63,568 nt of DNA from Chloroflexota bacterium (GTDB lineage Bacteria > Chloroflexota > Dehalococcoidia > Lucifugimonadales > UBA3495), in assembly GCA_028873965.1 (NCBI GenBank), contig JAPPMU010000036.1:1-63568 (forward strand), in the 5' to 3' direction. The notes beneath the pieces are model-generated. The model was not told the origin of the DNA, did no database searches, and saw only the letters and a program-made list of their open reading frames with translations. Position numbers and translations under genes: made by a program. Shown piece by piece: positions 51,871 through 56,742 of the stretch; position 1 is the stretch's first letter; each line of letters starts with the position of its first letter.

Positions 51871-54063
51871 CTACCGGCTCAGGTTGACGCCACATGCCTC
51901 GAGTCGCTCGATGGCCAGTCGTCCCGCGATGTAGCCCTCCAGGGAGATGAACCCGGGGGTCTCCTGGGGATAGTATGCGGTCAACGCGCTACGGTAATTG
52001 GCCACAACCATGCTGCTGGTATCGGTGGGCAGCGGCACGACTTGCGTGACGTAAACGCCTGCTCCATCCGAGCCGAGTTCTTGCGCCAACGCGTCGCTGC
52101 CCACGAAGGACACCGCCAGGAACGTGGGGTCAGGCTCCATCTTCATGCGCAGCTTCTCGATGATCCGCGCCGAGGGCTTGGGGCCGCCGATTATGATGAC
52201 CGCGTCCGGATTGGCTTCCGAGATCCGGAACGCCGCCGAGTTTATGGCCTCAGTGTTGCGCCGGTAGTACCAGGACGCTACGGGTTCCATACCCCGGCTC
52301 GCCAGCGCATTCTTGACGCCGGTGAGCCCGTCGTTGCCGTACGAGTCGTTTTGGTACAGCACCGCCACCCTGGTCTTGCCGGCCGCCGCCAGCAGGTCAA
52401 TCATTTTCTCGGTTTCCTCGTAGTACGAGGCGCGGAAGTTCAGGACCTGGGTGAGCTCATCGCCGCGCAGGAGCTGAGCTCCGGTGAACGGGGCGATGAA
52501 GGGCACTTCGGCGTCCTCGGCGAGCGGCAAGGCCGCCCGAGATGTCGGCGTGCCAACGGCGCCGATGAGCGCGAATACCTGGTCTTTTTCGATCAGGTCC
52601 TGGGTATTGTCAAACGCCGGGTCGGTTTCGTAGCGATCGTCCTTCGTTATGAGATTCAGCGTGCGGCCGTGCACTCCACCGTCGGCATTTGCCTCTTTGA
52701 ATGCTGCGTCGACGCCCATCATCATCCCTTGGCCGAGAGCCTTGGCAGGCCCATCCAAAGCGGCCGACTGTCCGAACTTTACCTCGGTGTCGGTGAAACC
52801 GGGGCTGACCGGATCTTCCGGCGGCAACGGTCCCGGATCCGGCATCGCCTGCGCGGCAGCGGCCAAACGATCGATTTCGTGCAGGAGTTGGTCCAATATC
52901 TTCTCGTTGGTGGCGATACGTGCGTTTTCCTGTGCCACCAACTCGAGCCGGCTCGCCAGGCGATCGAAGTAATTCTGGTCTCCGCTGCCGGCAGCCACAA
53001 ATTGCCGGGCGAGCGGAATCACCTGTCGTCCCAAGTTGGGACCACCGTGGTCTGCCAAGTACTCAATATCTCGGACGATACGGCTGTTGACCCCGTCGTA
53101 ACTCTCCTGGATGCGTGCCACAAATGTGGGGTCCTGCATGAGGCTGGCCACAAGCAGAAGCGTATGACCCAATGTCACGTTCGTCCCGAGGCTGTCCATA
53201 TGGGAGTAGCGGAGAATGTCCTCGTCGGAGAGTGCGGTACCATCGCCGACGTTGGTCATCACGTGATAGAACTGATTGTCCACGCTGGCGGCGGCGGCCG
53301 GAAACAGCGTGTCCCTGTTGGTTTGCGTCAAGGTCTCCCTGCTTCTTGTTTCTGCCACCACCGCGCGGAGCAACGCGGGCCTGTCCCTGAGGATCAGGTT
53401 CGTGTTGGCTTTGAGCCGGTTCACCAGGGTTTCGATTTGCTGGACTCTCGCTGCGTGGCCCTTGCCGGACAGGGCTTCCACTTGTTGATCCAATGCGGTT
53501 ATCATGGCCCGGTATCCGGGGAAGTCCGCCTCGCTGGTTGGCAGCGGCTCAGCGACCAACGCGCTGGCGTGCCGGGAAATAGCCAGCGCGGCGGCGAGAA
53601 CCTCAACTGCTGCTTCGGCATCTACTTCCACCGGCAATCGGATGATGTCCCATTCCGACGGAGCGGAGGTTACGCCGTCTTGCCGGCTCCTGACCCTGAA
53701 CGCGTAACCGCGGGCCGGATCGGCTAGCAGATTGCCGATGGTCTCACTTTCCCTGTCGTCTTCGGACGCTTCGACTGGCTTAGACCGGATCAGACCCGTC
53801 CAATTTTGGCCGGCGTCATAGGCCGCCCATGCCGCGTCCAGGTCCACCCATTGGACGACATAACCCGTTGCGCCGTCCACCGCGTCCCAGGACACGATTG
53901 CCTCTCCCATACCGGGCCCCTGGACCGCTCGCACGTTGGCAGGAGCAGCCAAATCCGTCTGTGCGTCCACAACGTTGCCCAGCGCAAACCACCCGCCAGC
54001 GACGGCCAGGGCGGCTGCGGCAACAAACCCGAAGACCGGGATCAGAATACGTCGTGTTTTCAT
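51871..54063 (-). CDS. ABC solute-binding protein with FN3 and helical sensor domains, truncated by an amber stop
   Basis: A 730-aa secreted or anchored protein. A signal/anchor helix (RRILIPVFGFVAAAALAVAG) is followed by a fibronectin-III domain (NVRAVQGPGMGEAIVSWDAV; ARGYAFRVRSRQDG). About 180 helical residues (120-300) resemble sensor four-helix domains. From about 315 it is a Leu/Ile/Val-binding-type domain (FGQSAALDGPAKALGQGMMM; FALIGAVGTPTSRAALPLAE; VAVLYQNDSYGNDGLTGVKN). The TAG at 51871 cuts off 52 more codons. No permease or ATPase is adjacent. Confidence 0.75.
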   Translation of the reverse strand: MKTRRILIPVFGFVAAAALAVAGGWFALGNVVDAQTDLAAPANVRAVQGPGMGEAIVSWDAVDGATGYVVQWVDLDAAWAAYDAGQNWTGLIRSKPVEASEDDRESETIGNLLADPARGYAFRVRSRQDGVTSAPSEWDIIRLPVEVDAEAAVEVLAAALAISRHASALVAEPLPTSEADFPGYRAMITALDQQVEALSGKGHAARVQQIETLVNRLKANTNLILRDRPALLRAVVAETRSRETLTQTNRDTLFPAAAASVDNQFYHVMTNVGDGTALSDEDILRYSHMDSLGTNVTLGHTLLLVASLMQDPTFVARIQESYDGVNSRIVRDIEYLADHGGPNLGRQVIPLARQFVAAGSGDQNYFDRLASRLELVAQENARIATNEKILDQLLHEIDRLAAAAQAMPDPGPLPPEDPVSPGFTDTEVKFGQSAALDGPAKALGQGMMMGVDAAFKEANADGGVHGRTLNLITKDDRYETDPAFDNTQDLIEKDQVFALIGAVGTPTSRAALPLAEDAEVPFIAPFTGAQLLRGDELTQVLNFRASYYEETEKMIDLLAAAGKTRVAVLYQNDSYGNDGLTGVKNALASRGMEPVASWYYRRNTEAINSAAFRISEANPDAVIIIGGPKPSARIIEKLRMKMEPDPTFLAVSFVGSDALAQELGSDGAGVYVTQVVPLPTDTSSMVVANYRSALTAYYPQETPGFISLEGYIAGRLAIERLEACGVNLSR

Positions 54064-54479: not shown

Positions 54480-55496
54480 TCAAAAGTGGTAGAACATCTC
54501 CTGAAGTTCGTTGCGATTTGCCGTGGTCGTTAGACCCAGCATCAGCAGGATGCGGGCCTTCTGCGGCATGAGGTTGTCGGACACGATGAAACCCTGTTCG
54601 TCCTTGCGCGGCGTCATCACCACGCGGCCGGCGATGGAACGGCTGGCCAGCACCACGGGCATACCGCCGGCTACGGCAGACTCGGCGGCGGAGATGACCG
54701 CCGGCGGGAAGGTTCCCGCGCCGAATCCAGCTAAGACCAAACCGGCGCGTGCCCCCGTTTGATCTGCGTGGGCGCGCACCGCGTCGATGAGCATCCCGTC
54801 AGCGCCGGCGTAGGCGTGCACGATGTCCACCCGGGGCAGGTCGCTCATGCCGTCCACGCGGAAAGGGGTCTCGACGGTGTGCTTGCGGATGGGGCTACGG
54901 TAGAAGACCACCTGATGATCGGAGTCGGCGTAGCCCAGGAAGCCGAGTTCGTTGGCCTTGAAGGTTTCCACCCGCAGGGTGTTGGCCTTGTACACCTCGC
55001 GGGCGCAGTGGATCTCGTTGTTGAGCACAGTGACCACGCCCATGCCGGCGGCCTCCGGCGTGGCGGCGATGCGCACGGCGTCCAGCAGGTTGAGGTCGGC
55101 GTCGGTGCTGATGGCCGTGGGCGGACGCATGGCGCCGGTGATGACCACGGGCCGCTGGGTCTTGACGGTCAAGTGGAGGAAGTAGGCGGTCTCCTCCAGG
55201 GTGGCGGTGCCGTGGGTGATGACGATGCCGGCGGTGTCGGGCTCGTCGCGGTCAATGGCGTGGATGCGCTCGGCCAGGGCAATCCAGTTGGCGGGGCCGA
55301 TGGCGGTGCTGCCGACGCTGACCATGTCCTCGGCGATGACGTTGAAGTTGTCGCCGATCTCGGGCACCCGGGCCAGGTTCTGCTCGATGGTCAGGTGGTC
55401 GCCGATTTCGGGGTACAAAGTGTAGTCCATGCGGTCGGGGCCTACGCCGGCGATACTGCCGCCGGTGGCGATGATGTGGACGGTGGGATTGGGCAT
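54480..55496 (-). CDS. L-asparaginase-family protein
   Basis: A 338-aa type I/II-like asparaginase. T11 in IIATGGSIAGVG and T97 in ITHGTATLEETAYFL correspond to the two catalytic threonines, and K170 is in CAREVYKANTLRVETF. The Asp normally after the second Thr (T-D-T) is A98, and that residue is a substrate contact in E. coli asparaginase II (D90). The C-terminal GMPVVLASRSIAGRVV fits. There is no signal peptide, so it is cytoplasmic. Confidence 0.88.
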   Translation of the reverse strand: MPNPTVHIIATGGSIAGVGPDRMDYTLYPEIGDHLTIEQNLARVPEIGDNFNVIAEDMVSVGSTAIGPANWIALAERIHAIDRDEPDTAGIVITHGTATLEETAYFLHLTVKTQRPVVITGAMRPPTAISTDADLNLLDAVRIAATPEAAGMGVVTVLNNEIHCAREVYKANTLRVETFKANELGFLGYADSDHQVVFYRSPIRKHTVETPFRVDGMSDLPRVDIVHAYAGADGMLIDAVRAHADQTGARAGLVLAGFGAGTFPPAVISAAESAVAGGMPVVLASRSIAGRVVMTPRKDEQGFIVSDNLMPQKARILLMLGLTTTANRNELQEMFYHF

Positions 55497-55505
55497 GGTA
55501 CACTC

Positions 55506-56210
55506 CTAATGCTGACGCGCGTCCGGCACGGCCAGGATGTCAGCCGGCTGTTCCGGCTCGGAGTCCGCGCTGGCCTGTAGCAACTTCCTGGCGGCGGCAA
55601 TCAGCTCTCTGGCCCGTTCATCGTCAAAGTCAGGAACGTCGAATCCGTGGACGATGGCGTTGCGATAAGCCAGCATATCGGACAGATAAGCGTCGTCGTT
55701 TCTTGAAATTGCGCCATGATAGACCGCTTGGCCCAGGATGTAGCCGGAATGAGTGGCGCGCCTGATTTCCACACCTTCCGCGGCCGCCAACGCTCTAACG
55801 GCTGCTTCGCAGGCTGACCAGGCCAGCAGAAAGGCGGCCTCGGCGAATCCCATGGCTAAAACTTTTTCCGCCTGGTTGATGCGTCGGTCTATGTGGCTCT
55901 CTGTGAAAGGCTGCGCGCTTTCCGGCGCGTCCAGACGCTCCGGTTCACCAACCAGCAGCAGGTCGAAACTCCAACCGGGCCTGGCGCTGATGGCTTCCGC
56001 CAGTTCCGTCATTTGAGGAGTGACGGCAAGCGACGTTCTGGTTTTTACCTCAATCACTCTGGTTTCGCCGTCTTTGCGAACCACCAGATCGGCAATGAAT
56101 CCGGGCATAAAGTCCAAGGGGATTTCCTGGAACACTTCATAGCCCCGGCTGCGGTACTCAGCCGCCTTCTTGGCGACGAATTGCCTTTCGCTGATAGCTA
56201 TGTCTTCCAT
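55506..56210 (-). CDS. PD-(D/E)XK nuclease-HEPN fusion
   Basis: A 234-aa protein. Residues 1-90 hold a restriction-fold: D41 in FIADLVVRKDG and E54-x-K56 in RVIEVKTRTS, with Q66 in the following helix. Residues 110-220 are helical: AFLLAWSACEAAVRALAAAE, then LSDMLAYRNAIVHGFDV, with the HEPN R-x4-H motif. HEPN domains often cut RNA. Its ATG overlaps the stop of the RusA-like gene by one base (TGATG), indicating coupled translation. The role is unknown; defence or stress is a reasonable guess. Confidence 0.72.
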   Translation of the reverse strand: MEDIAISERQFVAKKAAEYRSRGYEVFQEIPLDFMPGFIADLVVRKDGETRVIEVKTRTSLAVTPQMTELAEAISARPGWSFDLLLVGEPERLDAPESAQPFTESHIDRRINQAEKVLAMGFAEAAFLLAWSACEAAVRALAAAEGVEIRRATHSGYILGQAVYHGAISRNDDAYLSDMLAYRNAIVHGFDVPDFDDERARELIAAARKLLQASADSEPEQPADILAVPDARQH

Positions 56211-56611
56211 CAGAAATTGACCTCCCGTAGCGGCGCGTCGTCGATAAGCACGTGCACGAACTCAGCGTTGCGATTCAGGGATTGGCGCAGGATGGGCGAA
56301 GCATTGGATATTTGGGGATCGTCTTTAAGATTGCGTTTGCGGCAAGTCAGGTCGGTTACGGCGGCATCGTCGGAATAGACTAGCCCCTTCAACGCGTCCA
56401 GGATCGGTTTGGGCATATTGTCAACGTCCAGCTCGGCGCGGTCAAAGAGGTGGGTAATCGACACCGCCAGCGCGCCGTCAACGGCAGGCTGCCCACGCCA
56501 GAGCCCGGCGGCGGCGTTACGCACTTCCTGTGTCCATTGCCTGACCAACTCCCTACGGCGGGCCTGCTGCGACACGGGAGAACGGTAAATTACGAACTCG
56601 AAGGGCAACAT
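56210..56611 (-). CDS. RusA-like Holliday-junction resolvase
   Basis: A 133-aa RusA-family protein. LDVDNMPKPILDALKGLVYS and DDAAVTDL contain the acidic residues D62, D64, D72 and D81-D82 and the lysine K68 of the catalytic site. RusA proteins resolve Holliday junctions and are usually phage-derived, but no phage genes are near. It is the middle gene of a three-gene set: a 42-aa ORF ends 2 nt before it and the nuclease-HEPN gene overlaps its stop. Confidence 0.78.
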   Translation of the reverse strand: MLPFEFVIYRSPVSQQARRRELVRQWTQEVRNAAAGLWRGQPAVDGALAVSITHLFDRAELDVDNMPKPILDALKGLVYSDDAAVTDLTCRKRNLKDDPQISNASPILRQSLNRNAEFVHVLIDDAPLREVNF

Positions 56612-56613
56612 CG

Positions 56614-56742
56614 CTATCGTAGCAGCAACAGCGCGGTGGCCAAACTCAGAGCCAGGGTCATGCTACTGTGCGCCCCTTCCGGCAACTTGCGGAGTTCATT
56701 TACCAAACCGGCCAGATATTCTTTGTCTCGAACAGCAACCAT
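56614..56742 (-). CDS. Possible 42-aa protein leading the RusA/HEPN cassette
   Basis: The frame reads MVAVRDKEYLAGLVNELRKL, then PEGAHSSMTLALSLATALLL and LR. Its TAG lies 2 nt before the RusA ATG (TAGCGATG). A TATAAT is at 56779-56784 on the minus strand, about 37 nt upstream of its ATG, with no good -35. The N-terminal half is a charged helix and the C-terminal half hydrophobic. It could be a small regulator or simply a leader; the evidence is only position and codon order. Confidence 0.4.
   Translation of the reverse strand: MVAVRDKEYLAGLVNELRKLPEGAHSSMTLALSLATALLLLR

Follow-up and report, generated by a model that had tools for sequence, protein, structure and literature searches.

A conserved gene pair joining a RusA-type resolvase to an AHJR-HEPN protein, a candidate anti-phage module of Chloroflexota and alphaproteobacterial plasmids

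RusA is commonly regarded as an enzyme of phage recombination. What, then, might a RusA-family gene be doing in a Chloroflexota contig, overlapping the gene for a nuclease fused to a HEPN domain? This arrangement lies in a 63,568-nucleotide (nt) stretch of contig JAPPMU010000036.1 (assembly GCA_028873965.1), henceforth the window: a RusA-family gene and, sharing 1 nt with it on the same minus strand, a gene encoding an archaeal Holliday junction resolvase (AHJR)-like restriction endonuclease (REase) joined to a HEPN domain. We describe the two genes as a conserved unit that is likely, at a probability of about 0.5, to be an anti-phage module of the abortive-infection type, with a front end predicted to act on branched DNA and a HEPN domain predicted to cleave RNA.

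The window RusA scores above the cutoff of PF05866, has the RusA fold and carries the catalytic acidic residues and lysine (D62, D64, K68, and D82), which we take to match those of Escherichia coli RusA. In the second protein, the AHJR part exceeds the cutoff of PF18743 (63.5 bits) and holds the PD-(D/E)XK residues D41, E54, and K56, while the HEPN part shows both the family score and the fold of HEPN, with a motif (R183-NAIV-H188) of the R-x4-6-H type; the predicted structure of the fusion has a predicted local distance difference test score (pLDDT) of 89.3. Every predicted catalytic site of RusA, AHJR, and HEPN is thus intact, and RusA and the AHJR part both resemble junction-cutting nucleases. 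An earlier sequence-only reading had named both proteins correctly, and the two nuclease sites on whose presence in the fusion it had staked its proposal are there. It had also packed a third frame, of 42 amino acids (aa), into the unit. We left this frame out, because the match to the closest relative fetched (L011; 87.9% identity across 2,151 alignment columns, spanning REase-HEPN, RusA, and nearly the whole asparaginase gene beyond them) breaks off within the frame, at a point some 55 nt upstream of RusA, and because the frame matched nothing in family searches. A search of PADLOC-DB 2.0.0 (5,027 models) with all three frames returned no family at E ≤ 1, and a scan for promoters and terminators gave no signal exceeding shuffles.

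The sequence-only reading had asked whether the linkage would recur in other genomes. Indeed, a RusA gene lies immediately upstream of an AHJR gene at 22 loci in two phyla: 16 Chloroflexota genomes (the window, L011, G161, G551, G362, G528, G669, G653, G602, G552, G643, G652, G074, G104, G111, and G073) and six alphaproteobacterial plasmids (pTi_CFBP2177, pT136b, pRGM101b, pRphaR630d, AZO_p4, and a Methylobacterium bullatum plasmid). These loci are partly non-independent, L011 being close to the window. G653 has an in-frame stop in its HEPN part and G073 is decayed; without the latter, 21 readable pairs remain. With the starts chosen, the two genes overlap by 1 nt in 10 pairs and by 4 nt in seven, the other four junctions being ambiguous or spaced. 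Across the 21 pairs, RusA distances track AHJR distances (Mantel r 0.88; none of 20,000 permutations as high), which shows that the two proteins travel together rather than that they touch, with shared ancestry contributing. Among 72,556 plasmid records searched by tblastn with each protein separately, six held RusA relatives; five of these six (window query), or all six, also held AHJR-HEPN relatives, and in every case the two were neighbours.

Of 400 genomes sampled across the phylum, 20 matched an AHJR-HEPN profile; we counted eight as AHJR-containing relatives (G000, G362, G528, G551, G457, G552, G602, and G073, which is decayed). The other 12 were not counted, since their matches fell mostly within HEPN or covered a short stretch of the REase. 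RusA matches occurred in 11 genomes, seven of them among the eight and each with AHJR directly downstream (hypergeometric P 8.5e-12, the eight having been picked after inspection of the matches). The fusion of the eighth, G457, begins 24 nt into its contig, so a RusA partner could not be shown; the RusA profile matched none of 29 genomes of its class. In the order of G528, RusA was found in seven of 82 genomes, with AHJR downstream in all seven. The window's own class yielded RusA matches in 19 of 294 genomes, and the best six (71-200 bits) come with AHJR, at one of them (G111) as a weak match of 17.9 bits. In the class of G362, an earlier AHJR-HEPN profile matched 10 of 41 genomes, two at full length. 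The linked pair is thus patchy, being present in seven of 400 phylum genomes and six of 294 class genomes. Among listed proteins, AHJR-HEPN relatives are also named in Rhizobium, Agrobacterium, Mesorhizobium, Humitalea, Nostoc, and Caldilineaceae, and a PF18743 match was found in Caulobacter vibrioides. Two loci, L127 and L128, encode RusA-like proteins with a D-x-A-N-I-I-G-G type motif in place of D-x-D-N, perhaps inactive RusA relatives.

RusA genes are common in phages, and a phage-derived RusA gene might simply have come to rest beside a stand-alone REase-HEPN gene. Such a chance neighbourhood would fit the weak RusA matches that lack AHJR in the same samples, namely the remaining four of the phylum (25-36 bits; flanks of 1.5 kb fetched) and 13 of the class (≤45 bits), none of which has AHJR in the flanks that were fetched. 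It is contradicted by the conserved linkage, with one gene order in two phyla and correlated divergence. Moreover, neither window protein matched anything in 50,697 phage records, and none of 25 RusA loci on viral contigs had AHJR within the fetched DNA. We consider chance very improbable. A phage origin of the pair itself was rejected on the same absence of phage-record matches and because the viral-contig scans gave no convincing AHJR-HEPN relative: two of three AHJR-HEPN queries found no relative at all, and the third found a single 18-residue match, on DNA that neither the RusA nor the AHJR-HEPN profile matched.

If RusA and AHJR are constant partners, what varies is the domain that follows AHJR. 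In the 21 pairs it is HEPN in 14 (one interrupted), pP_pnuc_2 in four, and absent in three. Within the family to which G528 belongs, pP_pnuc_2 replaces HEPN in four genomes (cutoff 25 bits; G552 46.3, G643 45.9, G602 36.3, and G652 20.3, which is below it); in two of these the AHJR part falls slightly short of its own cutoff of 26.1 bits (G602 23.0 and G643 22.0). AHJR stands alone in G074 (57.1 bits) and G104 (30.0 bits), and less clearly in G111, a weak case in which Pfam gave no match for the 116-aa protein. In the plasmid records, nothing matched the AHJR-only protein of L004. Because HEPN is exchanged for pP_pnuc_2 or missing, these architectures suggest an effector role for the C-terminal domain, behind an invariant front end of RusA plus AHJR. 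Further variants occur among the AHJR-HEPN proteins. Three (P0084, P0107, and P0119; 376-396 aa) bear a long hydrophobic N-terminus resembling several membrane helices, so some members may be membrane-anchored. Six others (P0016, P0021, P0026, P0031, P0101, and P0115; 353-356 aa) carry about 130 further C-terminal residues; we rejected these as RusA fusions, as the extra part of the six is unlike RusA and that of P0016 has no Pfam match, to RusA or otherwise.

Which of the predicted sites persist? For AHJR-HEPN we compared 240 proteins, namely the best 120 of 543 matches and the best 120 of 268, and for RusA the best 120 of 252. RusA residues D62, D64, K68, and D82 are retained in 118 of these 120, and HEPN R183 together with H188 in 235 of the 240. 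In the AHJR part, D41 is kept in 237 proteins and E54 in 208, position 56 is occupied by K in 161, by R in 60, by Q in 17, and by another residue in two, and the full set is found in 147. In the pairs, the RusA residues are complete in 20 of 21, R-x4-H is present in all 13 uninterrupted HEPN copies, and AHJR D/E/K is complete in just 10 of 21. We infer that catalysis by RusA and HEPN matters and that AHJR in many cases serves for binding or docking; since its D/E/K set is so often incomplete while RusA and HEPN residues persist, AHJR may mostly position the protein.

This pattern bears on the possibility that the genes form a toxin-antitoxin or addiction pair, in which the HEPN protein would be an RNase toxin and RusA its antidote or regulator, retaining the carrier DNA rather than defending against phages. 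An antidote working by binding would not need the catalytic residues that nearly all listed RusA relatives keep, nor does such a pair readily account for the three pairs without a C-terminal domain and the four with pP_pnuc_2 instead of HEPN. We regard it as unlikely.

Gene neighbourhoods speak to the role of the pair. We scanned 29 neighbour genes, chosen by hand and not exhaustive, against family libraries, and at seven of the 22 loci genes of restriction, Gabija, AbiE, PD-Lambda-2, or comparable systems are found close by. The neighbours are AbiEi (3.4e-90), AbiEii (3.5e-92), GajB (1.8e-50), GajA (2.1e-76), and an Mrr-like protein on pT136b; PD-Lambda-2_B (1.3e-68), PD-Lambda-2_C (7.6e-23), and PRTase_III-A (1.1e-97) on pRGM101b; GajA (2.6e-76) and GajB (7.6e-53) on pRphaR630d; a C5-methylase, Mrr_cat, and PDC-M33A (1.6e-93) in G073; a type ISP enzyme, PIN_4, and TraG in G161; an MmeI-like protein in G528; and RRXRR-HNH, XisH, and HepT in G552. 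The fusion of G457, whose RusA is not visible, adjoins Vsr with a C5-methylase, GIY-YIG, and Phd/YefM. For an informal comparison we read the annotation of three other stretches of pT136b, each of 50 kb and together holding 100 features; neither restriction nor Abi genes are named there, and a single DUF1778-GNAT pair is possibly a toxin-antitoxin. The proximity to defence islands that the sequence-only reading had proposed to look for is seen at some of the loci and not at the window, which has no such neighbour.

Several observations weigh against an anti-phage role. The neighbours, a chosen set, are no more than suggestive, and 15 of the 22 loci, the window included, have no known defence neighbour (judged from product names or by eye, several on short contigs). 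Three Rhizobium plasmids have flanks partly in common and are not independent, and the window's HEPN score is no higher than its cutoff. On the Ti plasmid pTi_CFBP2177 (L069:4650-11308), the pair adjoins ligD and translesion-repair genes (imuA, a Y-family polymerase, and an error-prone DNA polymerase), which fits a DNA repair or recombination unit whose RusA and AHJR resolve host junctions, the C-terminal domains being accessory. The likeness of RusA and the AHJR part to junction-cutting nucleases would agree with this. Such a unit would hardly be so patchily distributed, lack a complete AHJR site in about half of its pairs, keep the HEPN motif in every uninterrupted copy, or stand near restriction and defence genes at seven loci, and we find it rather unlikely.

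We favour the anti-phage module because the linkage at 22 loci, the correlated distances, the C-terminal exchange, the residue pattern, the defence neighbours, and the patchy presence all point to it. Its substrate, trigger, effect, and phage link we infer as follows. RusA would cut junctions or flaps formed as phage or plasmid DNA replicates or recombines; AHJR, often without its full D/E/K set, would chiefly tether the second protein to branched DNA or to RusA; tethering would free or align the HEPN dimer, which would cleave RNA so that the cell halts. More generally, the exchangeable back end would kill or stall the cell through RNA or DNA cutting. We hold more tentatively that the pair represents a new class of prokaryotic immunity: AHJR and a RusA-type resolvase could together serve as a branched-DNA detector firing exchangeable effectors (a HEPN RNase, a pP_pnuc_2 nuclease, or none). 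If a RusA lineage is indeed coupled to a HEPN effector in two phyla, a resolvase would have been recruited into bacterial conflict systems, and the pair makes it testable whether DNA junctions tell a cell that it is infected.

Other genes lie around the pair (Table 1). In the window, the asparaginase gene shares the strand of the REase-HEPN gene and begins 9 nt 3' of it, an order also found in L011; it may be transcribed by read-through from the pair. Further along is a 730-aa protein with, by eye, a fibronectin-type part and an ABC substrate-binding part. On three of four rhizobial plasmids, a 644-659-aa ATP-binding protein with a weak PADLOC match (REase_II) is convergent to the pair; on these plasmids it could be a third component, or else a neighbour in the same hotspot.

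Table 1. Positions of the features discussed (window coordinates unless a locus is given).
Feature	Position	Strand or orientation	Remarks
RusA-family gene, 133 aa	56210..56611	-	D62, D64, K68, D82 predicted catalytic
AHJR-like REase joined to HEPN, 234 aa	55506..56210	-	PF18743 63.5 bits; PF05168 22 bits
AHJR-like REase domain	55869..56192	-	D41, E54, K56
HEPN domain, residues ~97-218	55557..55922	-	R183 + H188 (R-x4-H)
Asparaginase gene	54480-55496	-	
730-aa protein	51871-54063	-	
ATP-binding protein	L069:12676-14610, L070:14271-16250, L072:12735-14684	convergent to RusA/REase-HEPN pair	
RusA-like proteins	L127:1206-1598, L128:1444-1824		D-x-A-N-I-I-G-G type motif

How does the pair compare with described systems? 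Anantharaman et al. (2013, PMC3710099, Table 1) list occasional fusions of HEPN-M (DUF86) with an REase that resembles archaeal Holliday junction resolvases and had escaped earlier detection. Judged from this one-line entry, the fusion has the same two domains as the window protein, and the name of PF18743 matches; the AHJR-HEPN fusion itself is therefore not new, and the sequence-only claim of an undescribed layout can hold for the RusA link alone. The word RusA is absent from the main text of that paper, and the portions consulted mention no RusA partner and no replacement of HEPN by pP_pnuc_2. A RusA gene beside an AHJR-HEPN gene was not described in the openly licensed PMC papers searched (preprints, most subscription papers, and supplements lying outside the search), nor in the parts consulted of PMC12737573, PMC12839542, PMC8195603, and PMC9879122. 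The fusion, entered in 2013 without a partner as far as those portions go, now has RusA as its partner gene.

The HEPN-MNT (HepT-MntA) toxin-antitoxin systems have the HEPN fold, an R-x4-H type motif, and a two-gene layout in common with the pair. Their partner is a nucleotidyltransferase, whereas here it is RusA and HEPN is joined to an AHJR REase; the gene overlapping the window REase-HEPN gene matches RusA only, not the adjacent MNT nucleotidyltransferase that defines those systems. The phage RusA Holliday junction resolvases (PF05866; phrog_140 and phrog_34) share family, fold, and catalytic residues with the window RusA, which belongs, by contrast, to a cellular and plasmid subgroup ordered with AHJR genes, an arrangement absent from the viral RusA loci. 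Finally, pP_pnuc_2 (PF18166), a predicted pPIWI-associating nuclease, here occupies the position of HEPN, joined to AHJR and adjoining RusA.
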